DNA from: a virus
DNA length: 25,118 bases
IMG/VR virus record: IMGVR_UViG_3300045135_001765
Coordinates: 1-25,118 of that record
Strand: one strand, 5' to 3'
Part shown: positions 5,032 through 25,118 of the stretch, in pieces
Position numbering within the stretch: position 1 is the first letter of the stretch
Layout: every line of letters starts with the position of its first letter
The notes under the pieces: generated by a model
Told to the model about the DNA's origin: nothing
The model's database searches: none
The model's input: the letters and a program-made list of their open reading frames with translations, nothing else
Position numbers and translations under genes: made by a program

Positions 5032-7134
5032 ATGTTTGGTTTCTACAGCTTTAGTGAAAACCCGTTTTCTTCTGCATCAGTAGTTTCTGCTGGTGAAGTT
5101 AAGACTGGTGTAGCTGTATTAAATGCTTCTGGTAATTTGACTGCTGATTTGTCTAGTGCGGGGTCAATAAGAGAAGGTAATTCTTTATTATCTTCTTCCG
5201 GCATTTTTGATTCAAATGGCAGAATTATACATGGTGGGTTTGCAACATTAGAAGCTTCTGGATCATTAACTTCTAATGGTTCAGTGCTAGTTCCTATTGA
5301 TAGTTCACTTGAAACTTCTGGTAATTTAACATCCAACCTATCTCGTATTGCCGTCACTCTAGAAGGTGCTGCAAGTTTATCTTCTTCTGGTGTATTTGAT
5401 TCAAATATTAGCATTGTACATGGCGGAAGTACATCAGCAAATGCTAGTGGTGAATTAACTTCTGATATACATGTAGTTCATGGTGGTATATCTCAATTTG
5501 AAGCATCTGGTACTTTAGGTGTTAGCGAGTCAGTTGAACTTGATGGAGCCAGTTTATTATTAGATGCTGGTACAGTATCAGCTAAGGGCACACTATTAAG
5601 TGTTTCCTCTAGTTCTACAGAAGCTTCTGGTACAATCACTCCTGATCCAGGTCGTATCATACCACATGGTAGTTCACTATCTGGATCTGGTATTGTAACT
5701 GGAATATCCAGTAGTAGAAAAGTATCTGCTACTGATATATCTTCAAGTGGAACTACAACAAATAATGGAACATTAATACTTGGTCCATTATATTCAATTG
5801 AATCATCTGGAACTATTGATCCTAATGGCAGTAATTTAATTGCTGGTAAAGCCTCGTTGACATCTCCGGGTGCTACGATTGTTGCTGGAAAATTTGCTCC
5901 AGGAGAATTAACAGCATCGTTATCAGCATCTAGTTCTATAACCGCACAAATAGGATTAGATCTTGAAAGTCAAGCCACCATTGGACAGTCAGCAAAAGAG
6001 TTTGTAAGAAAAACTAGTAGGCCAAATTATAAGCCAGCACTACCTGAATTATCTAATAAAGATGAAGGAATAATACTGGACTTCCCATTTTATGAAGGGG
6101 CGGGAAATTTACGCAGTGTTTCCTCTAGGAGACAATCCGGCAATGCAAACATGTTAATGTGGGGAAGGGTTGATGGGCGGCAGTCCTTAACGTCTAATGG
6201 CGGTAGTTATAATAATTATAGAATAACCTTTGATTCTACAGATTTTAATTTCTCAGATGGCAGTTTGCTAATATCATTTAAACCAACAAGGTCTACTTCT
6301 GGTTCTCAGTTCTTGTTTAATAATCGAGGAACTGGAAACAACAATAATGAAATTGATATCTATTCTTTAAATTCCTCAAATAAAGTTCGCATAGATATTT
6401 ATAACGGAACATCCAGACAAAGACTAGATGTACCCAATTTATCCTTTAATAGTTGGAATACCCTTATTGTAACATTTGGTAGCGACCTTAATGCCTCTTT
6501 GAACGGCAATGATTTTTCAACGTATTCTTCCATAACAATGCCATCAGCAAATAGTTCTACGAGTTATATATTAGGAAACCCTGATGACAGATTTGGTATG
6601 GAGGGGTCTGTAGATCATTTTAGGTTATATGACAGGCAGATTTCACAAACTTATGCAAAACAATTACACAGAAATATATACCAAGATTATTCCCTAGATT
6701 ACATAATCCCAAATCACTACGAAATGTCTAGAGTGACCAGCAGTGGTCGCCTGATGAAAAATTCTGGAAGTAATATATCTGCATCTGGTCAGGTGATAAG
6801 TCGCGGATCATTTTTGATTGCGCAAATAAAAGCAGCACTTGGCGGTGAAGGGTTAATTACCGCAAATGGAATTCTTACAGATTTTGATGTTACCACCGCC
6901 TCCTTACAAGCCGCTGCCACAATTGCGGCAAATGGTATTCTACTTGGTGAACTTGATACTGTTCCATTTACAATGCTAATTAATCGACTTGAGGAGTATA
7001 ATATAGATGTATACAGGCAATTTGCCAAGGAGTTTAATGTGGCAAAATCCAAGGCGATATCAGCATCTATAGATAAAATAAATATTACGGACATTAACAT
7101 AGATAAAATTCTAGAAGCAAATCTAGAAAAATAA
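5032..7134 (+). CDS. Repeat adhesin with LamG/concanavalin-like domain
   Basis: The 700-residue protein begins 'MFGFYSFSENPFSS', an N-terminus type common in environmental phage fibre proteins. Residues about 27-325 are an array of roughly 20-residue repeats built on 'ASGxLTSNGS', often ending in 'HGG' (for example near 5220, 5420 and 5480). Residues about 344-540 form a LamG/concanavalin A-like lectin domain: 'GIILDFPFYEGAGNLR' opens it, a 'FNSWNTLIVTF' strand is in the middle, and the hallmark 'SVDHFRLYDRQIS' closes it. Similar SG-type repeats resume at about 566-640, and the C-terminus (650-700) is helical. The domain probably binds surface glycans, making this a receptor-binding or head/tail-decorating fibre. 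SD is weak. It lies just upstream of a second large fibre gene. Confidence 0.75.
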   Translation: MFGFYSFSENPFSSASVVSAGEVKTGVAVLNASGNLTADLSSAGSIREGNSLLSSSGIFDSNGRIIHGGFATLEASGSLTSNGSVLVPIDSSLETSGNLTSNLSRIAVTLEGAASLSSSGVFDSNISIVHGGSTSANASGELTSDIHVVHGGISQFEASGTLGVSESVELDGASLLLDAGTVSAKGTLLSVSSSSTEASGTITPDPGRIIPHGSSLSGSGIVTGISSSRKVSATDISSSGTTTNNGTLILGPLYSIESSGTIDPNGSNLIAGKASLTSPGATIVAGKFAPGELTASLSASSSITAQIGLDLESQATIGQSAKEFVRKTSRPNYKPALPELSNKDEGIILDFPFYEGAGNLRSVSSRRQSGNANMLMWGRVDGRQSLTSNGGSYNNYRITFDSTDFNFSDGSLLISFKPTRSTSGSQFLFNNRGTGNNNNEIDIYSLNSSNKVRIDIYNGTSRQRLDVPNLSFNSWNTLIVTFGSDLNASLNGNDFSTYSSITMPSANSSTSYILGNPDDRFGMEGSVDHFRLYDRQISQTYAKQLHRNIYQDYSLDYIIPNHYEMSRVTSSGRLMKNSGSNISASGQVISRGSFLIAQIKAALGGEGLITANGILTDFDVTTASLQAAATIAANGILLGELDTVPFTMLINRLEEYNIDVYRQFAKEFNVAKSKAISASIDKINITDINIDKILEANLEK
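5110..6010 (+). repeat. Array of ~20-residue SG-rich repeats
   Basis: About fourteen degenerate units of 19-23 codons, each with an 'ASG' or 'SSG' core followed by 'LTSN' or 'IFDSN' and often 'HGG', make up residues about 27-325 of the first adhesin. DNA copies are similar but not identical, so this is an old protein repeat, not a recent tandem duplication. Bounds are approximate. Confidence 0.7.
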
Positions 7135-10184: not shown

Positions 10185-11228
10185 ATGGAAGATATACATG
10201 AGTGCCAATGTGCTCAGGCGGGATATTGTGAGTTTTTTAAGCAAGAAATGACTTATGATCCACCAAACTGGCAGTGGTGTCAACGGGCTAGTAAGTCTGA
10301 ACGAGATCAATATAAAGCTAATTGCGATAAAAAACACAAAAGAAGAGAAGAACAAAACAGAATGTTCTTGGATGCCGAATACATTACAACAGCACAATTG
10401 ATACAAGAGTGTAAGGATCTATTACTACCTCAAATTGCAAAACTCAATCTTAAAGGTGTAGTAGGTATACCGAGATCAGGAATGCTCCCTGCCAGCATGA
10501 TAGCACTCTGGCTTAATCTGCCCTTATATTTTGTTAATAGGTCTGGTCAACCCAATATATTATCTGCCTCAACAAATTTTGGCGGAATAAGAATGGGGAA
10601 CTTTTTAAGCAGACAGGGTAAACTTTTGGTCGTAGATGATACGATATACAAAGGAAATGCAATTCAAGATTTTAAATCAACATTTCACGAAGACGCTTTT
10701 TATTGCGCTGCTTACGCCCATCCTTCAGCAAAACATAAAGTAGATTTCTTTGCTAAAGAACTGCCCCCTCCACATCTGCTAGAATGGAATCTTTTTAACT
10801 GCACATACATAGAGACTGCGTTATTAGATTTTGATGGCATATTTTGTCCAAATGTTCCATACGAAATGTCTATAGACGAAAAAAAATATATTGACTACAT
10901 AAAAAATGTAGAACCTTTCCCACACAGAATCCCTAAAACACATTGTAAGGGAATTGTAACTGCACGCTTAGAAAAATATCGCTCCATCACGGAAGATTGG
11001 CTAAGACGACACGAAATTAATTACGGGTTCTTAAAAATGTTCCCCACAGAAGATAAAGCCAAGAGAGATAAAAATCATGTAGAAGAGTCGTCAACATTTA
11101 AGTCCGAGATATTTTCCAATTCTGATGCTAACTTTTTTATAGAGAGCGAAATACCAGAAGCGGTCAGAATAAGAAAGAAAAGTGGAAAGTTTGTAATCTG
11201 TCCGGAGGAAAAATTATGCAGGAGATGA
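10185..11228 (+). CDS. Phosphoribosyltransferase-HAD fusion with Cys cluster
   Basis: The 347-residue protein has three parts. Cys7, Cys9, Cys15 and Cys32 near the N-terminus (C-x-C-x5-C-x16-C) could bind a metal. Residues about 65-195 are a type I phosphoribosyltransferase: 'VVGIPRSGMLPA' (92-103) is the early strand-loop, and 'VVDDTIYKGNAI' (149-160) is the PRPP-binding loop with the paired Asp. Residues about 205-335 look like a HAD-family hydrolase: 'LLDFDGIFC' with Asp215 and Asp217 (motif I), 'GIVTAR' with Thr259 (motif II), a Lys-rich helix, and 'FFIESE' as a possible motif IV. Such a protein could use or make a phosphorylated ribosyl compound and remove a phosphate. Substrate is unknown. 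It heads a four-gene coupled cassette; its end overlaps the glycosyltransferase start by 13 bases. Confidence 0.78.
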   Translation: MEDIHECQCAQAGYCEFFKQEMTYDPPNWQWCQRASKSERDQYKANCDKKHKRREEQNRMFLDAEYITTAQLIQECKDLLLPQIAKLNLKGVVGIPRSGMLPASMIALWLNLPLYFVNRSGQPNILSASTNFGGIRMGNFLSRQGKLLVVDDTIYKGNAIQDFKSTFHEDAFYCAAYAHPSAKHKVDFFAKELPPPHLLEWNLFNCTYIETALLDFDGIFCPNVPYEMSIDEKKYIDYIKNVEPFPHRIPKTHCKGIVTARLEKYRSITEDWLRRHEINYGFLKMFPTEDKAKRDKNHVEESSTFKSEIFSNSDANFFIESEIPEAVRIRKKSGKFVICPEEKLCRR

Positions 11229-12022
11229 CCTGCCGAATAAAATTAATTGACAGACTCCCCACAAAAACATCAGATTTAGCAATATGTTTGATACCCGCAA
11301 ATAAAGAAGCAATGGACCAACTTGATATTACTAGGAATAACATACTACAATATGCTGAAAAATGCAATGCCGATTATATAGAATTAACCGGAGACCAAGC
11401 TCCAGACTGGCCCATGTCGAATAAGTACAGGCTAAAACAGGTAATTGAAAATTACGAACATACATTGTACCTTGATTGTGATGTAGTAATTAAAAAAGAC
11501 GCTCCAAATATATATGAAGAATTAGCATCAGACAAAGTTTGTTTTGTTAATGAGTGGAATATAATCAAATCATCATCCCATGCTATTTTTAGAGCTATGA
11601 AATCAGAAAGAGAAATGGCTGTACAGGAATATCCGCATCTAGCCAAAAACAATAGAGACATCCAGCCGAATGGGGGTGTTATGTTGTTTCCAAAAAAACT
11701 AGCACACAGATATTCGCAACCGCCCTCATTTTACTCTAAAAGATGGTGCTTTGATCAAGACTACCTTCTACTTAACTTAGAAGATAACGAATTTGAATTA
11801 ATGGACTGGAAATATAATTTAGAGTTTATTGATTTTGATTTTTGGTCAAAAATAGAAGATGCCTACTTTGTTCATTTAAATGGTTCTAGACCATTAGATT
11901 ATAGATTAAGACTACTAAATAGGTTGGTCAATAAAGAATATTCCTTTCTACCACAACCGGAACCAAAGGAAAATGATTCTGTTATAGATAGATTTAGACC
12001 AAATTGGAGGACGGAATGTTAA
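11216..12022 (+). CDS. GT-A (GT8-like) glycosyltransferase
   Basis: The 268-residue protein shows the ordered marks of a nucleotide-sugar-dependent GT-A glycosyltransferase. There is a beta-alpha start 'DLAICLIPANK', then a D-x-D metal site in 'LYLDCDVVI' (Asp87 and Asp89), 'QPNGGVMLF' (150-158) as the acceptor/donor loop, 'CFDQDYLLL' (178-186), and 'YFVHLNGSRP' with His220, matching the late metal-binding His of GT8-type enzymes. It would transfer a sugar from an NDP-sugar to a protein or glycan. A GGAGG just before ATG 11216, in the 3' end of the previous gene, is its SD. It is coupled to a sulfotransferase-like gene downstream. Donor and acceptor cannot be read from sequence. There is no membrane anchor, so it should act in the cytoplasm. 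Confidence 0.82.
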   Translation: MQEMTCRIKLIDRLPTKTSDLAICLIPANKEAMDQLDITRNNILQYAEKCNADYIELTGDQAPDWPMSNKYRLKQVIENYEHTLYLDCDVVIKKDAPNIYEELASDKVCFVNEWNIIKSSSHAIFRAMKSEREMAVQEYPHLAKNNRDIQPNGGVMLFPKKLAHRYSQPPSFYSKRWCFDQDYLLLNLEDNEFELMDWKYNLEFIDFDFWSKIEDAYFVHLNGSRPLDYRLRLLNRLVNKEYSFLPQPEPKENDSVIDRFRPNWRTEC

Positions 12023-12576
12023 TCAATAACAAAAAAAAGATTTTAATCTGGCAACCGTTTAAGAACTACAGCACATCCTTAGCAGACTATATGACTAGCT
12101 ATAGAATTTTTGGTCATGGTAGATTTCTCTTTGCGCAAGGTCCAGTACCGTATCTAGCAAGTGATGTAACAGAACCAGATGATGAACCTGGTTTGGGGCA
12201 TACAAATTGGCTTCCAGCTAGATGCACAAATTATTTAAAACTTCTACCAATAAGAAATCCTTATGATAGAGTTGTCAGTCAGTGGAAGAATACATTAAAG
12301 GATTGGGGGAATATTGAATTCGATGAGTGGCTTATGATTCATTCCAAACAATTAGTAATGTTTCCAGTAACAAAAATGTACAAATACGAAAAACTTATTA
12401 AGGTCGAGCATATACAGGATGAGTTAGAACAATTGGGTTTGTGGAGTAGTGAGCACGAATTCCCGCACAATAATAAATCAGATATTCAAAATGATTTTAA
12501 ATTAAACCAGAAACAAAAAGATATTATATATTATTTTCACTATAGTGATTTTGTCGAAGGGGGATATGAAAAGTGA
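12016..12576 (+). CDS. Small sulfotransferase-like protein
   Basis: The 186-residue protein carries both PAPS-binding signatures of sulfotransferases. The N-terminal 'QPFKNYSTSL' (13-22) aligns position by position with the 5'-phosphosulfate loop P-K-T-G-S-T-S-L, including Lys16 and Ser19-Thr20-Ser21. 'PIRNPYDRVVSQW' (78-90) is a clear 3'-phosphate site with Arg80 and Ser88. It would move sulfate from PAPS to a hydroxyl, presumably on a sugar given its neighbours. ATG 12016 is chosen because GGAGG at 12006-12010 lies five bases before it; an upstream in-frame TTG at 12004 would overlap that SD. At 186 residues it is shorter than most members (often 250-350), so it may be a compact or reduced form. 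It overlaps the glycosyltransferase by seven bases and the epimerase by four. Confidence 0.75.
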   Translation: MLINNKKKILIWQPFKNYSTSLADYMTSYRIFGHGRFLFAQGPVPYLASDVTEPDDEPGLGHTNWLPARCTNYLKLLPIRNPYDRVVSQWKNTLKDWGNIEFDEWLMIHSKQLVMFPVTKMYKYEKLIKVEHIQDELEQLGLWSSEHEFPHNNKSDIQNDFKLNQKQKDIIYYFHYSDFVEGGYEK

Positions 12577-13457
12577 CCCTAAAGGCAGTCGTAACTGGAG
12601 GTTGTGGTTTTATAGGTTCTAACCTAGTTGATAAACTTGTTCAGAAAAGCTTCGAAGTTATTGTCATAGATAATAAATTTGATAATAAAAATAAAAACGC
12701 TTCATATCATAAATATGATATAAACAACTATGAACTAATTGAACCATTATTTATGGATATTGATTATGTATTTCACTTAGCAGCAGAATCGAGAATACAA
12801 CCAACTATTGAAAATCCAAGACTTGCAATGAAAACAAATGTTCTTGGCACATGTAATGTTCTAGAAGCTTCCAGAAAATATAACATTAAAAGAGTAGTGT
12901 ACTCATCTACTTCTTCAGCTTATGGATTAAAGAATGACCCACCACTTGTTGAGGATATGCATAGAGATTGTTTAAATCCATATTCAGTCTCAAAATGTGC
13001 TGGAGAAGATCTGTGTAAAATGTATTACAGTCTATATGGATTAGAAACTGTTACATTTAGATACTTTAATGTATATGGAGAAAGACAACCAACAAAAGGA
13101 CAGTACGCTCCGGTAATTGGTATTTTTCAAAGACAATATTCAAATGGTGAGCCGATGACCGTCGTTGGTGATGGGTCACAAACCCGTGACTATGTTCATG
13201 TTTCAGATGTTGTAAATGCCAATATTCTCATGGCTTTACACGAAGATGAGTCTTGTTTAGGTGAGATTTTTAATGTGGGAACTGGTACTAGTTATTCAGT
13301 TATGGATATAGTATCTATGGTAGGATCTGATAATGCAAACTATGTTAATGTTCCAAATCGAGTTGGTGAAGCGAAAAATACACTCGCTGATAATAAAAAA
13401 CTGAAATCATTTGGATGGACCCCTAAAATCAAACTCCAAGAATGGATTAAGTCATAA
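12573..13457 (+). CDS. NAD-dependent sugar-nucleotide epimerase/dehydratase
   Basis: The 294-residue protein is an extended short-chain dehydrogenase/reductase. It has the Rossmann loop 'TGGCGFIGS' (8-16), the 'VFHLAA' strand, a Ser-rich 'SSTSSAYG' (111-118) and the catalytic Tyr137/Lys141 in 'NPYSVSK'. 'FRYFNVYGERQ' follows, then 'GDGSQTRDYVHVSDV', which is typical of UDP-glucose 4-epimerase/WbpP-like enzymes. It would convert an NDP-hexose (or acid), supplying donor for the glycosyltransferase two genes upstream. The start is GTG 12573 in a GTGA overlap with the sulfotransferase stop, with AAGGGGG (12557-12563) as SD. It ends a little earlier than typical 310-340-residue members, so the last helices are short. 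Substrate specificity is not resolvable; dehydratase activity is less likely given the whole pattern. Confidence 0.85.
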   Translation: MTLKAVVTGGCGFIGSNLVDKLVQKSFEVIVIDNKFDNKNKNASYHKYDINNYELIEPLFMDIDYVFHLAAESRIQPTIENPRLAMKTNVLGTCNVLEASRKYNIKRVVYSSTSSAYGLKNDPPLVEDMHRDCLNPYSVSKCAGEDLCKMYYSLYGLETVTFRYFNVYGERQPTKGQYAPVIGIFQRQYSNGEPMTVVGDGSQTRDYVHVSDVVNANILMALHEDESCLGEIFNVGTGTSYSVMDIVSMVGSDNANYVNVPNRVGEAKNTLADNKKLKSFGWTPKIKLQEWIKS

Positions 13458-20520: not shown

Positions 20521-23500
20521 ATGGCTAACGATAGTATTCTGGTCCAAGTACAGCTAGGCGCACCAACAAAAGCCAATGTTAATGCTGTAACTAAGCAAAT
20601 AAAGAGTGCCCTTAGTAATGTTAGCGCAAATGTCCAGATTCAGAATGGTCGTCAAGCTGCACAGCAGCTTCAAAATATAAAAACCAAAACTGATGCTTCT
20701 ACCAAATCAATGAATTCTTTTGGTGAAGCTATTGGTTTATCTGGTAGACGGTTTTTAGCTTTTACTTCGGCTGTTGCTGTAGTTGGTAGGTTAACATCGG
20801 CAATTTCTCAAGCAACTAGGGAAGCAATAAAATTCGAGAGAGAATTTGTAAAATTAGCACAGGTTTTTGATACGGATGTTAAAGCTCTTGATAGACTACA
20901 AGGCTCAATATCTGAGTTAGCTCAAGAATTTGGTCTTTCAGCAACCGTTATCGCTAGGACTAGTGTTGTTCTTGCTCAATCAGGTTTGACTGCGAAACAA
21001 ACTGAACAAGCTATGGCGGCACTTGCTAAAACTACATTAGCTTCTACATTTGATAATATAGCATCTACTACTGAAGGTGCTGTTGCTATTATGGCTCAGT
21101 TTCGTACTCAGGCTACTCAGTTAGAGTCTCAACTTGGTGCTATTAACGCCGTTTCTAAGAAATTCGCTGTTGAATCTGGAGACATCATCGAGGCGGTGAG
21201 ACGGGCTGGTGGTGCATTTAAGGCCGCTGGTGGTAACTTTGAAGATTTCATATCACTCTTCACTGCTGTTCGTAGTACGACTCGTGAAAGTGCTGAAACT
21301 ATTGCCACTGGTTTTAGAACAATCTTTGCTAGAATTCAACGACCTAGAACTATTGAGTTTTTCCGGGAGTTAAACATTGAACTTACTGATGGTCGTGGAA
21401 ACTTCATTGGTGCATTTAAAGCTATCAGAAGATTAAGTGAAGGATTGCAACGTGCAGGTATTGAAGCTGGTAGTTTAAAATTTGCATCAGTTGTTGAACA
21501 GCTTGGTGGTATTCGTCAGGTCTCTCGTGTAATTCCATTATTGGGTGAATTTGCTAAAGCTGAGAGAGCTAGACAAGTTGCTCAACAAGGTGCTGCATCA
21601 TTAGATGCTGATGTCGCAAAGGCACAAGAAACACTAGCCCAAGCATTTGCTAGAACCACGGAAAACTTTAGAGCTTTGATCCGTGAAATATCACAAACCG
21701 AAAGCTTCCAATCAATACTCCAAATCGCATTAAGTCTTGCTAATGCATTTATTGAAGTTGCTAGATCGGTCAAACCTCTTATTCCTTTAATCACTGCTTT
21801 AGGTGCCGTTAAGATTGGTGGTTTGGCTGCTGGTGCATTAAGAAAAGGTCTTGGTGGTGCTGGCGGTACTGGTGGACTTGGGCAGGGATTTAAAAGAGGT
21901 GGTCCTGTTCCTGGTACTGGTAGTGGTGATACGGTCCCGGCGATGTTGGAGCCTGGAGAATTTGTTATTCGTAAGAGTGCTGTTCAGGCGTTTGGTGCGG
22001 ATAGATTGTCGAGGATTAATAAGTATGCTCGTGGTGGACCGGCAGAAGCTAGTATCAAAAGTATCAAAAAACGATTTCCCAGTCTAAATAAAAATCTTCC
22101 ACGTAATAAAAATGCTTTAAATATTCAAGATGCAGATTTTGCTAAAGTTAACATCGTTCAGCGTGTTGTGACAGATTCTCAAGTTAAAAGACTGAATAAT
22201 GACCCTAGTGGTAAAAAATTAGTTTCTAATTTTGTCAATGAACCAAATGTTAAACAACAAGCTAATTTGTTTGAGTCTATTGTTGCACGTATTTATAAAA
22301 GAAATTTAATTAAAACAGATCAGTCTCCTTTGGATGTTCGATCAGAGGCAGGTATTGGAGAGGTTAAGTTTAGAAATCCTAGCAGAGTGTCAAGGGTTGA
22401 TCTTATTGGTAAAATGTTTAGAGACGCTTTAGGATTTGAGCGTGGATCTACTGGTTTAAGAAAAAATATTTTAGGAACATATACATCCCAGACTGGTGAA
22501 AGTCGTAATTTTGGTAATTTAGAATTTTATGTGCCTGGTACTATTTTAAAATCATCAGGAAAAAAGACTGCTGGAAAAGGTCGATTTTTATCAAAATTTG
22601 CTAAAGGCGGTGCAGTAGGCACCGATACAGTCCCCGCTCTCCTAACTCCCGGCGAATTTGTAGTCAATAAAGAATCAGCTAAAGCTTTTGGTTATGGGAA
22701 ATTGGGTAAGATTAATAAGTATGCTAAGGGTGGTGTTGTTGGGGTACAGAAATTTGCTAATGGTGGAAATGTATCGGGGTCAAATATACTATCCGGTGCA
22801 GCCGCTGGGGGTCTTGCGTTATCTGTAGTCTTTTCAGCTTTAGGCGAAGAAGCAGATGGTATAACTAAAGCCCTATCTAAAACAGCGATTACAATTGGTA
22901 TTTTAGGATCTGTTTTAGCTTCTTCTGCTGCAAAAGGCAAAAAATTTAGAGAGTTGTTTTCAAAGTTGTTTTCAAATAAAGCAAAGAAAGAAATTGAAGA
23001 CGGCGCTAAAGAGATTGCTGAAGCCACAACTAAGGCTGAAAAACCACTTGATGATTTTGGTAAAGAATTGAAAAAAGTTGTTGCACTTTTGCGTTCTGTT
23101 AGCAACAAGCTTGGTGGAATAAGAACAAGAAGTGGCAGACAAAGAGTTCCTGGGTCAAACCAACCTGTTCGTGCTGGTGTGGCTGGTTTTCAAACTCCTG
23201 GTAAAATATCTCAGATCAGGAAGCAAGGAGCATTTGGTTCTGGCGAGCTTGGGGGTGAAGCCGGTGGAGCCGGTGGAAAGGGTGCGTCAGCAATACAAAC
23301 TGCAATAGAAGTAGCACAAGCGGGTCTAGTTGCTACTATTGCTGGTGTTTCTGCTACTTTTTCAATAGCTGCCGATTCTGCTAAAAAGATGTCTGAGCAG
23401 TTTATAGAAGCTGGCAATGCCGAAGAAGCTGGTCAACAGGCAAGATTAGCCGCTGAACAAGAATCTATGTCTTCAGCAGTAACTGTTCTTGCTGGGGGAG

Positions 23501-25118
23501 CGGCTGTAATAGGTACTTTTGTGGGTGGACCATTGGCTGCGATTATTGCTGGGTTTGCAGCACTTGCAGTTATTTTAACAGGTGGTCAGGAGATTATTCA
23601 ATCATTTTTTGATACTGTGAGTAATGTTGTCGTTGGTATTTTAGAAATTGGAGTTAAGTTTGGTCTTGTAACTACAGAAATAGCGAATGCGGTTACGGCA
23701 GCACTGCCCGATCCAAAACTGTCGGCAGATTTAGCTCAACAACAAGCTGAATTTCAAGCTCAGATAAAAAAGACAGAGAAAGAAATCAAGAAACTTGGCG
23801 ATGCTACTAAACTATTTAAAGATGAGTTATCTATAGCTCCTGAAGATCTTAGGGGCGACTTGATACAAAAGCAAGCTGATAAATTAACTCAATTCGCAAA
23901 TACGGTTGATCAGAGCGGTCTTGTTTTTGAAAAGAATGGGGAAACTGTATCGTCATTACAAGACACAATAGATAAACTTAATGCAGAAATAGAACGCAAT
24001 TCTAAAACATTTGACGGGAATGCCAGAGAAAGAAACAGAGAAACTCAACAGTTAAAACAACGAGTAACACAAACGCAGAAAGAAATAGAAACAGCAAAAC
24101 AAGCATCAACACAGCAGTTAGATAACTTAAAAACCACATTTGAAGCAGCTAGAGCAAATCAAGTTTTCGGTCAAACATTAAAGAGATTGACTAAAGATGG
24201 TAAAGTACAATTGGACCAACAGGGAAGAGTTACTAAAGAGACAATTCAATCATCAACCGCTCTTAATAATATTTATGCGGGACTAATTGCTTCTGGTAGT
24301 AGTGAAAATCAAGCTAGGGTGGCAATCACAAAAGCTATTCTTGGCGAAAAGTCTGCTATGGAGCAACTTAGGGAAGTTAATGAAAAGTTAACAACCAGTA
24401 TTGGTTCGGAATTGAGACCATTGCTTTTTGGGGCTGTTGATGAACAATTAAAAGCTGCTCGCAGAGTAAATGCGGGAATAAAAATTCTTGAAACTCAAGA
24501 TGTTGGAAGTGTGCGATCAGGACAAAGAGGTGGTGGGTTAGATTTTATTAGAACCTTGGGTAATGCGGGACTAACATCTTTTCAGGGTCAAGAACTTACT
24601 GACATATTAGAAGGAATATTTAGAACACAAGCTGGCAGGGAAGGTGAAGAAGGACAAAATCTTATTAACGTATTTGATCAGTTGAAGGCAGACGGTGCAG
24701 AAGGTAAAAAGCAAGCTGATGCATTTCTGTCGGGTTTATTTGGAATCGATGTTACTCAATTAAGGCAGCTTCAAGAATTAGAAAATATCAACGAAGCTCT
24801 TAGTCAACAATCAACAAACGGTCAAGACAACGCTTTCAATGGAGCCATACTCCACGCATTGGGTGAAAATAATCCCAGGGAACATATTATTGAGGTTGGC
24901 GATAGGACCAATACACATTTACAAAACATTTTCGATGAATTAGGTGCAATAAAAGTAAATACAGCTAAACCAGTTCCAGCACCTATAGATACTCCATCTC
25001 CGGATTTTATGATCGGGGGAGGCGGAAATATCGTCACCGGACAAGCAAAAGGCGGGCCGGTCTATGCCGCAGGCGGCACATTAGTAAACTTCCAGCCACA
25101 AGGTACAGACACAGTACC
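20521..25118 (+). CDS. Tape measure protein (3' truncated)
   Basis: The frame is open from ATG 20521 (SD GGGAG at 20510-20514) through the right edge: 1532 complete codons, no stop. Residues about 90-340 match the TP901-type tape measure core: 'AIKFEREFVKLAQVFDTD', then 'ISELAQEFGLSATVIARTSV', 'LAQSGLTAKQTEQAMAAL', and a conserved 'QFRTQ' region. Three copies of a 'GG-V-GTDTVPALL-PGEF' motif occur at about 460-506, 696-738 and 1510-1532 (cut). Between the first two lies an embedded domain (about 535-675) with nuclease-like spacing. Hydrophobic segments lie near 754-775, 789-803, 932-952 and 987-1020, and coiled coils near 1070-1205. It sets tail length and is ejected with the DNA. Being unfinished at 1532 residues, it implies a long tail. 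Confidence 0.9.
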   Translation, partial: MANDSILVQVQLGAPTKANVNAVTKQIKSALSNVSANVQIQNGRQAAQQLQNIKTKTDASTKSMNSFGEAIGLSGRRFLAFTSAVAVVGRLTSAISQATREAIKFEREFVKLAQVFDTDVKALDRLQGSISELAQEFGLSATVIARTSVVLAQSGLTAKQTEQAMAALAKTTLASTFDNIASTTEGAVAIMAQFRTQATQLESQLGAINAVSKKFAVESGDIIEAVRRAGGAFKAAGGNFEDFISLFTAVRSTTRESAETIATGFRTIFARIQRPRTIEFFRELNIELTDGRGNFIGAFKAIRRLSEGLQRAGIEAGSLKFASVVEQLGGIRQVSRVIPLLGEFAKAERARQVAQQGAASLDADVAKAQETLAQAFARTTENFRALIREISQTESFQSILQIALSLANAFIEVARSVKPLIPLITALGAVKIGGLAAGALRKGLGGAGGTGGLGQGFKRGGPVPGTGSGDTVPAMLEPGEFVIRKSAVQAFGADRLSRINKYARGGPAEASIKSIKKRFPSLNKNLPRNKNALNIQDADFAKVNIVQRVVTDSQVKRLNNDPSGKKLVSNFVNEPNVKQQANLFESIVARIYKRNLIKTDQSPLDVRSEAGIGEVKFRNPSRVSRVDLIGKMFRDALGFERGSTGLRKNILGTYTSQTGESRNFGNLEFYVPGTILKSSGKKTAGKGRFLSKFAKGGAVGTDTVPALLTPGEFVVNKESAKAFGYGKLGKINKYAKGGVVGVQKFANGGNVSGSNILSGAAAGGLALSVVFSALGEEADGITKALSKTAITIGILGSVLASSAAKGKKFRELFSKLFSNKAKKEIEDGAKEIAEATTKAEKPLDDFGKELKKVVALLRSVSNKLGGIRTRSGRQRVPGSNQPVRAGVAGFQTPGKISQIRKQGAFGSGELGGEAGGAGGKGASAIQTAIEVAQAGLVATIAGVSATFSIAADSAKKMSEQFIEAGNAEEAGQQARLAAEQESMSSAVTVLAGGAAVIGTFVGGPLAAIIAGFAALAVILTGGQEIIQSFFDTVSNVVVGILEIGVKFGLVTTEIANAVTAALPDPKLSADLAQQQAEFQAQIKKTEKEIKKLGDATKLFKDELSIAPEDLRGDLIQKQADKLTQFANTVDQSGLVFEKNGETVSSLQDTIDKLNAEIERNSKTFDGNARERNRETQQLKQRVTQTQKEIETAKQASTQQLDNLKTTFEAARANQVFGQTLKRLTKDGKVQLDQQGRVTKETIQSSTALNNIYAGLIASGSSENQARVAITKAILGEKSAMEQLREVNEKLTTSIGSELRPLLFGAVDEQLKAARRVNAGIKILETQDVGSVRSGQRGGGLDFIRTLGNAGLTSFQGQELTDILEGIFRTQAGREGEEGQNLINVFDQLKADGAEGKKQADAFLSGLFGIDVTQLRQLQELENINEALSQQSTNGQDNAFNGAILHALGENNPREHIIEVGDRTNTHLQNIFDELGAIKVNTAKPVPAPIDTPSPDFMIGGGGNIVTGQAKGGPVYAAGGTLVNFQPQGTDTV

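Follow-up and report, generated by a model that had tools for sequence, protein, structure and literature searches.

The viral contig IMGVR_UViG_3300045135_001765 of IMG/VR, whose whole stretch of 25,118 bases is hereafter called the window, ends within a long plus-strand open reading frame (ORF) encoding a phage tape measure protein (TMP). The predicted product, 1532 aa long and open at the contig end, was identified as a TMP by matches to PF10145 (PhageMin_Tail, E=1.1e-22) and PHROG 28 (tail length tape measure, E=2.4e-31), and it shows the N-terminal TMP domain in a very long ORF. PGEF motifs occur at residues 478 and 710, each within a repeat of the form “GDTVPAxLxPGEF”. The two repeats are near-identical and border a segment, here called the cargo slot, that carries a candidate nuclease domain. 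Features of the TMP gene are listed below, with identities given relative to the TMP of a related locus, L002.

20521-25116, plus strand: TMP ORF, 1532 aa, open at the contig end (ORF call, PF10145, PHROG 28)
20908-21453, plus strand: PhageMin_Tail domain, residues 130-311 (Pfam match)
21898-22038, plus strand: first PGEF repeat, bordering the slot on its 5′ side, residues 460-506 (from the sequence; 82% identity to L002 over residues 451-500)
22039-22605, plus strand: cargo slot, residues 507-695 (16-22% identity to L002; GC 32%)
22606-22734, plus strand: second PGEF repeat, bordering the slot on its 3′ side, residues 696-738 (82% identity to L002 over residues 701-750, with divergent flanks)
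25045-25116, plus strand: start of a third PGEF repeat, truncated by the contig end (sequence GGPVYAAGGTLVNFQPQGTDTV)

The third repeat is complete in L002, at residue 1968. A single small match of the window TMP to PF00503 (G-alpha, E=0.07) was dismissed as noise. A search of 20 virus records for contractile sheath families returned none, which suggests that the viruses carrying these TMPs are siphophages, although a divergent sheath could escape detection.

The segment between the PGEF repeats

An earlier note on this DNA had remarked that the chain between the first two PGEF motifs is unlike a TMP, and our analysis bears this out. Residues 507-695 constitute a separate AT-rich block with a GC content of 32%, compared with 42% upstream and 41% downstream, and contain neither His nor Cys. 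In sequence searches of Pfam, PHROGs, PADLOC and the PDB, the block matched nothing, and the domain alone, used as a query, retrieved no close relative from viral contigs and no match from phage records. Relatives were reached via the carrier, using as queries the N-terminal 500 residues of the TMP (298 related IMG/VR stretches, 80 of which were retrieved) and the second PGEF repeat (481 matches, 79 loci kept). The region between the two repeats varied from phage to phage. Slot GC was lower than that of the upstream sequence in 42 of 51 slots, and lower than that of the downstream sequence in 43 of 51.

The comparison with L002 is instructive as to the borders. Identity between the two TMPs was 72-98% over residues 1-500, fell to 16-22% in the slot and returned to 82% in the second repeat; past this repeat, the rod was 10-32% identical up to the next one. 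Because of this drop and return, the PGEF repeats look like exchange borders. They seem to mark junctions at which TMP segments are exchanged, and exchange would affect the slot and at least one further part of the protein. A study that surveyed mosaicism among TMPs reported being unable to confirm any genuine recent case (PMC10684548); the pair formed by the window and L002 looks like one.

Conserved residues and other occupants of the slot

The earlier note had pointed to four residues of the slot, E585, D605, E614 and K616, as the signature of a PD-(D/E)XK nuclease. All four positions are exact in the translation, and their coordinates, with those of the surrounding domain and a further conserved residue, are as follows.

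22207-22539, plus strand: PD-(D/E)XK-like domain, residues about 563-673 (leave-one-out profile match)
22273-22275, plus strand: E585, Glu of a helix
22333-22335, plus strand: D605
22360-22368, plus strand: E614-V-K616, the (D/E)xK motif
22411-22413, plus strand: K631, conserved Lys of the next helix

The earlier note had held that its reading would fail if these four residues were not conserved, and this did not occur. Conservation was checked in A1, a set of 22 window-like sequences that share 12-26% identity with the window and were selected partly by the motif. Glu at 585 and Asp at 605 were present in 22 of 22, position 614 was Glu in 20 and Asp in two, and position 616 was Lys in 19 and Arg in three; these four are the conserved positions in sequences that are otherwise unalignable. 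K631 was retained in 21 of the 22. That position 614 exchanges only Asp and Glu is as the PD-(D/E)XK signature predicts. In a second set of relatives (A5, 48 sequences), a Gly, the Glu and the Asp were invariant, the following position was Asp in 30 and Glu in 18, and the Lys was present in 44 and replaced by Thr in four. Both sets therefore display a helix Glu, an Asp and a (D/E)-x-Lys in the order and spacing of PD-(D/E)XK enzymes, and a single hhalign comparison of their profiles (E=5.5e-6) indicated that they are related. The replacement of the Lys by Thr was seen in the slots of L095, L106, L126 and L156 (“DATRT”, “DVTRT”), which are possibly inactive copies.

The pattern helix-E...D...(D/E)xK was found in 41 of 59 non-redundant slots (69%) between the same repeats. 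Composition shuffles and 377 segments of equal length taken from these TMPs each showed it at a frequency of 7.4%; it had been devised after inspection of the sequences, and was applied identically to the controls. A further test was independent of the motif. An iterative hidden Markov model (HMM) seeded with the whole slot of L096 collected 36 of the 59 slots, and the only columns conserved at 80% or more were G, F, E, D and K. When run against all TMP ORFs, this HMM found 165 domains in 159 ORFs (54 non-redundant). A profile built from the 21 other members of A1 matched the window slot with 32.5 bits, whereas the best of 1000 shuffles reached 10.9. The A5 domain was present in 15 of 20 virus records, in one copy each and always in an ORF of 1026-6929 aa at the TMP locus. 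A domain-centred scan starting from L033 returned only L033 itself, and neither A1 nor a further set, A4, offered a stretch conserved enough to serve as a scan query; a scan of genome contigs, which turned up four matches, each of them short, revealed no comparable prophage. As a whole, we concluded from these comparisons that the slot is a hypervariable cargo site, most often occupied by a divergent PD-(D/E)XK-like domain.

Few slot pairs were close enough for dN/dS estimates. The ratio was 0.14 for L123 and L128, with two such domains; another two pairs gave 0.40 and 0.42. It was 1.09 for L111 and L116, and 2.29 for L133 and L134, the last with too few changes to interpret. These values are compatible with function combined with rapid change. 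The slots of L103, L123, L128 and L146 each hold a tandem pair of different E-D-(D/E)xK domains.

Other slots hold domains that resemble known enzyme families. Six hand-picked slots resembling staphylococcal nuclease (SNase) formed set A6, in which the SNase-type residues D, D, R, D, E and R were invariant; staphylococcal nuclease was the only protein among the matches listed for the A6 profile against the PDB (best E=1.4e-5). The SNase family (PF00565) thus occupies the same slot in other TMPs by both profile match and catalytic residues; its fold differs from that of the window domain, and the window does not carry it. The slot of L029 contains an ADP-ribosyltransferase (ART) exoenzyme domain (PF03496, E=3.5e-10), and L035 gave a weaker ART match (E=1.7e-3) that falls below the curated cut-off. 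Weaker, too, are a HAD/polynucleotide-kinase-like match in L037 (PHROG 415, E=1.5e-4) and nucleotidyltransferase-like matches; GNAT-like, P-loop and HExxH stretches were spotted by eye only. A constant carrier is thus followed, after the first PGEF repeat, by interchangeable enzyme domains of E-D-(D/E)xK, SNase-like or ART type. The earlier note had described a domain in a single phage; what matters more is that many phages share the polymorphic slot of which this domain is one occupant.

Two related contigs, L314 (G138) and L315 (G129), encode giant TMPs with open frames of 6929 and 5989 aa. Between their PGEF repeats, HAD-like, GNAT-like (“GYGPKLYDAV”) and HExxH metalloprotease-like (“YHELTHQ”) stretches were noticed by eye; a protease embedded in such a protein could free the cargo.

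Fold, function and rival explanations

As to the fold proposed in the earlier note, the order and conservation of the residues stand, and the fold itself is unconfirmed. Profiles of two accepted PD-(D/E)XK families, Mrr_cat and Hjc, were built from genomes. The Mrr_cat profile gave a score of 15.8 with A1 and of 15.0 with A5, higher than any of 100 column-shuffled decoys (maxima 12.8 and 12.7) and about level with the score of the accepted members Mrr and Hjc against each other (14.5). The alignment covers only a short stretch, on the Glu helix, and for this reason the comparison supports a PD-(D/E)XK assignment weakly. Mrr_cat (PF04471) is the nearest family of this type tested, being like the window domain in the order and type of its catalytic residues; the window domain differs in that it has no significant family match.

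We consider it fairly probable that the hypervariable TMP slot here houses a divergent nuclease domain of PD-(D/E)XK-like type, which is carried in the virion and acts in the cell. In this scheme, cargo would be swapped at the PGEF borders while the N-terminal tail-assembly part is retained. The domain would travel in the virion within the TMP, be expelled together with it at infection and then fold on the cytoplasmic side of the membrane, where it might cut or nick DNA of the host chromosome, resident prophages, plasmids or a co-infecting phage. The SNase-like, ART-like and other enzyme-like cargo of relatives may serve the same early period of infection. Judged from TMP biology and from the precedents of P23-45 and Tme (see below), delivery into the cell is plausible.

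Several observations weigh against this reading. The domain has no sequence match in Pfam or the PDB to any nuclease family, and PDB profile searches with A1 and A5 returned nothing significant (Eco15I, E=1.5, is at noise level). The similarity to Mrr_cat is weak, and the scores of A1 and A5 against Hjc fall within the decoy range. Two AlphaFold2 models of the domain reached mean pLDDT values of only 50.5 and 62.6, and the matches listed in the fold searches were mostly small helical bundles, with no PD-(D/E)XK chain among them; because both models are poor, that outcome decides nothing. The reactive Lys is replaced in some members of both sets, the dN/dS values of close pairs span 0.14 to above 1, and the rod beyond the second repeat diverges as well, so that variability is not confined to the slot. 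Two difficulties for the scheme are the space that a folded domain would need in the tail tube and the risk to the phage's own DNA. Several folded copies might be accommodated by unfolding inside the tube, and the phage DNA might escape through its modification or through structure-specific nicking by the enzyme.

The replaced Lys residues, together with the fact that a TMP is mainly a ruler whose other parts also diverge, would suit a purely structural role, in which a PD-(D/E)XK-like or other fold serves as a spacer, a chaperone-binding element or an element of the tube lumen, and the acidic residues hold the structure together, with no catalysis inside the cell. The earlier note had allowed for such a dead fold used as a spacer. 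It speaks against such a role that E, D, (D/E) and in most cases K persist at about 12-26% identity, while nearly all else changes and position 614 accepts only Asp or Glu, although four of 48 relatives do carry Thr for Lys; moreover, slots of another fold keep SNase-type catalytic residues, and that of L029 holds an ART. We regard a structural role as unlikely. It is unlikely, too, that the four residues belong to another metal-binding enzyme fold. The unconfirmed fold and the non-significant Hjc comparison leave room for such an assignment, but the order helix-GxxFE, D, hydrophobic-(D/E)xK and the exchange of Glu with Asp are of PD-(D/E)XK type, and both relative sets exceeded every Mrr_cat decoy, near the level at which Mrr and Hjc match each other.

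If the domain is indeed a nuclease, its substrate could be the phage's own DNA, in packaging, neck assembly or ejection, and not that of the host. Virion nucleases required for packaging are known, as exemplified by the head-completion nuclease T4 gp4, which PMC7824862 cites. A core function of this kind should nevertheless be conserved, yet the cargo differs between TMPs with N-termini 72-98% identical, and elsewhere the slot holds an ART, which does not cut DNA; we find this option quite improbable. A selfish in-frame homing nuclease or intein housed in the TMP gene would explain the differing nuclease folds at one site and the AT-rich insert. However, non-nuclease cargo exists and no clean empty site was seen among these TMPs, which makes a selfish element very improbable. 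An intein or an HNH homing nuclease was rejected for the window, because residues 507-695, having no His or Cys, contain neither the usual intein splice junctions nor an HNH active site.

Returning to the nuclease cargo, a wider proposal is possible, although we hold it at somewhat short of even confidence: that TMPs throughout a broad group of uncultured siphophage-like viruses serve as polymorphic carriers of effectors and form, within the phage tail ruler, a counterpart to polymorphic toxins. As DNA enters the cell, their exchangeable slot, bordered by PGEF repeats and extending to thousands of residues in giant TMPs, would bring in nucleases, an ART and other enzymes. If this is true, a protein that annotations usually treat as a ruler and nothing more carries enzymes that act early; phages have an added route against hosts, prophages and rivals just as they enter; and part of the extreme divergence and length seen in some TMPs is accounted for.

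Elsewhere in the window, a run of sugar-modifying genes lies within the structural module (11216-13457), with a weak glycosyltransferase-like match (PF01501), a sulfotransferase (PF03567, E=3.3e-5) and an NAD-dependent epimerase (PF01370, E=7.6e-59). The protein encoded at positions 10185-11228, 347 aa long, combines a phosphoribosyltransferase-like stretch (“VVDDTIYKGN”) with a HAD/polynucleotide-kinase-like end (PHROG 415, E=3.3e-4). A large protein with a lectin-like Laminin_G_3 domain (PF13385, E=3.3e-8), encoded at 5032-7134, is probably a tail or decoration protein. At the loci L049-L058 and L064-L081, a different marine tail protein has a single PGEF repeat; the conserved domain after it includes “DPYGTLGCIGV”, a stretch resembling an L,D-transpeptidase-type motif.

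Comparison with known systems

In the portions of open PubMed Central texts consulted, we found phage TMPs nowhere described as having a polymorphic nuclease slot, and among open PubMed Central texts none paired “tape measure protein” with “ADP-ribosyltransferase domain”. Enzymes borne by TMPs are already known as such, and the polymorphic nuclease slot is the apparent new part. Polyvalent proteins of phages and conjugative elements, described by Iyer et al. in 2017, combine many effector domains and are thought to enter with the DNA (PMC5512222). The giant TMPs of the related contigs have a similar multi-domain flavour; tape measure proteins are unmentioned in the text of that paper.

One close counterpart is gp96 of the Thermus phage P23-45, in which a TMP is fused to a virion RNA polymerase and the full protein is present in virions (PMC10770324). 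Here too an enzyme domain is built into a siphophage TMP. In gp96, however, it is a single fixed RNA polymerase at the N-terminus, whereas the window and its relatives carry small, changing, nuclease-like or other domains that are internal and lie between repeats. Tme, the tapemeasure-related endonuclease effector of the contractile injection system of Streptomyces davawensis, is likewise a TMP-related protein with a nuclease domain, which is active and whose role has been demonstrated (PMC11126660). The Tme nuclease is C-terminal, of the EndA-like DRGH/H-N-N type, and belongs to a bacterial injection system; the window domain, in contrast, is His-free with an E-D-(D/E)xK signature, and is internal to the TMP of a phage.
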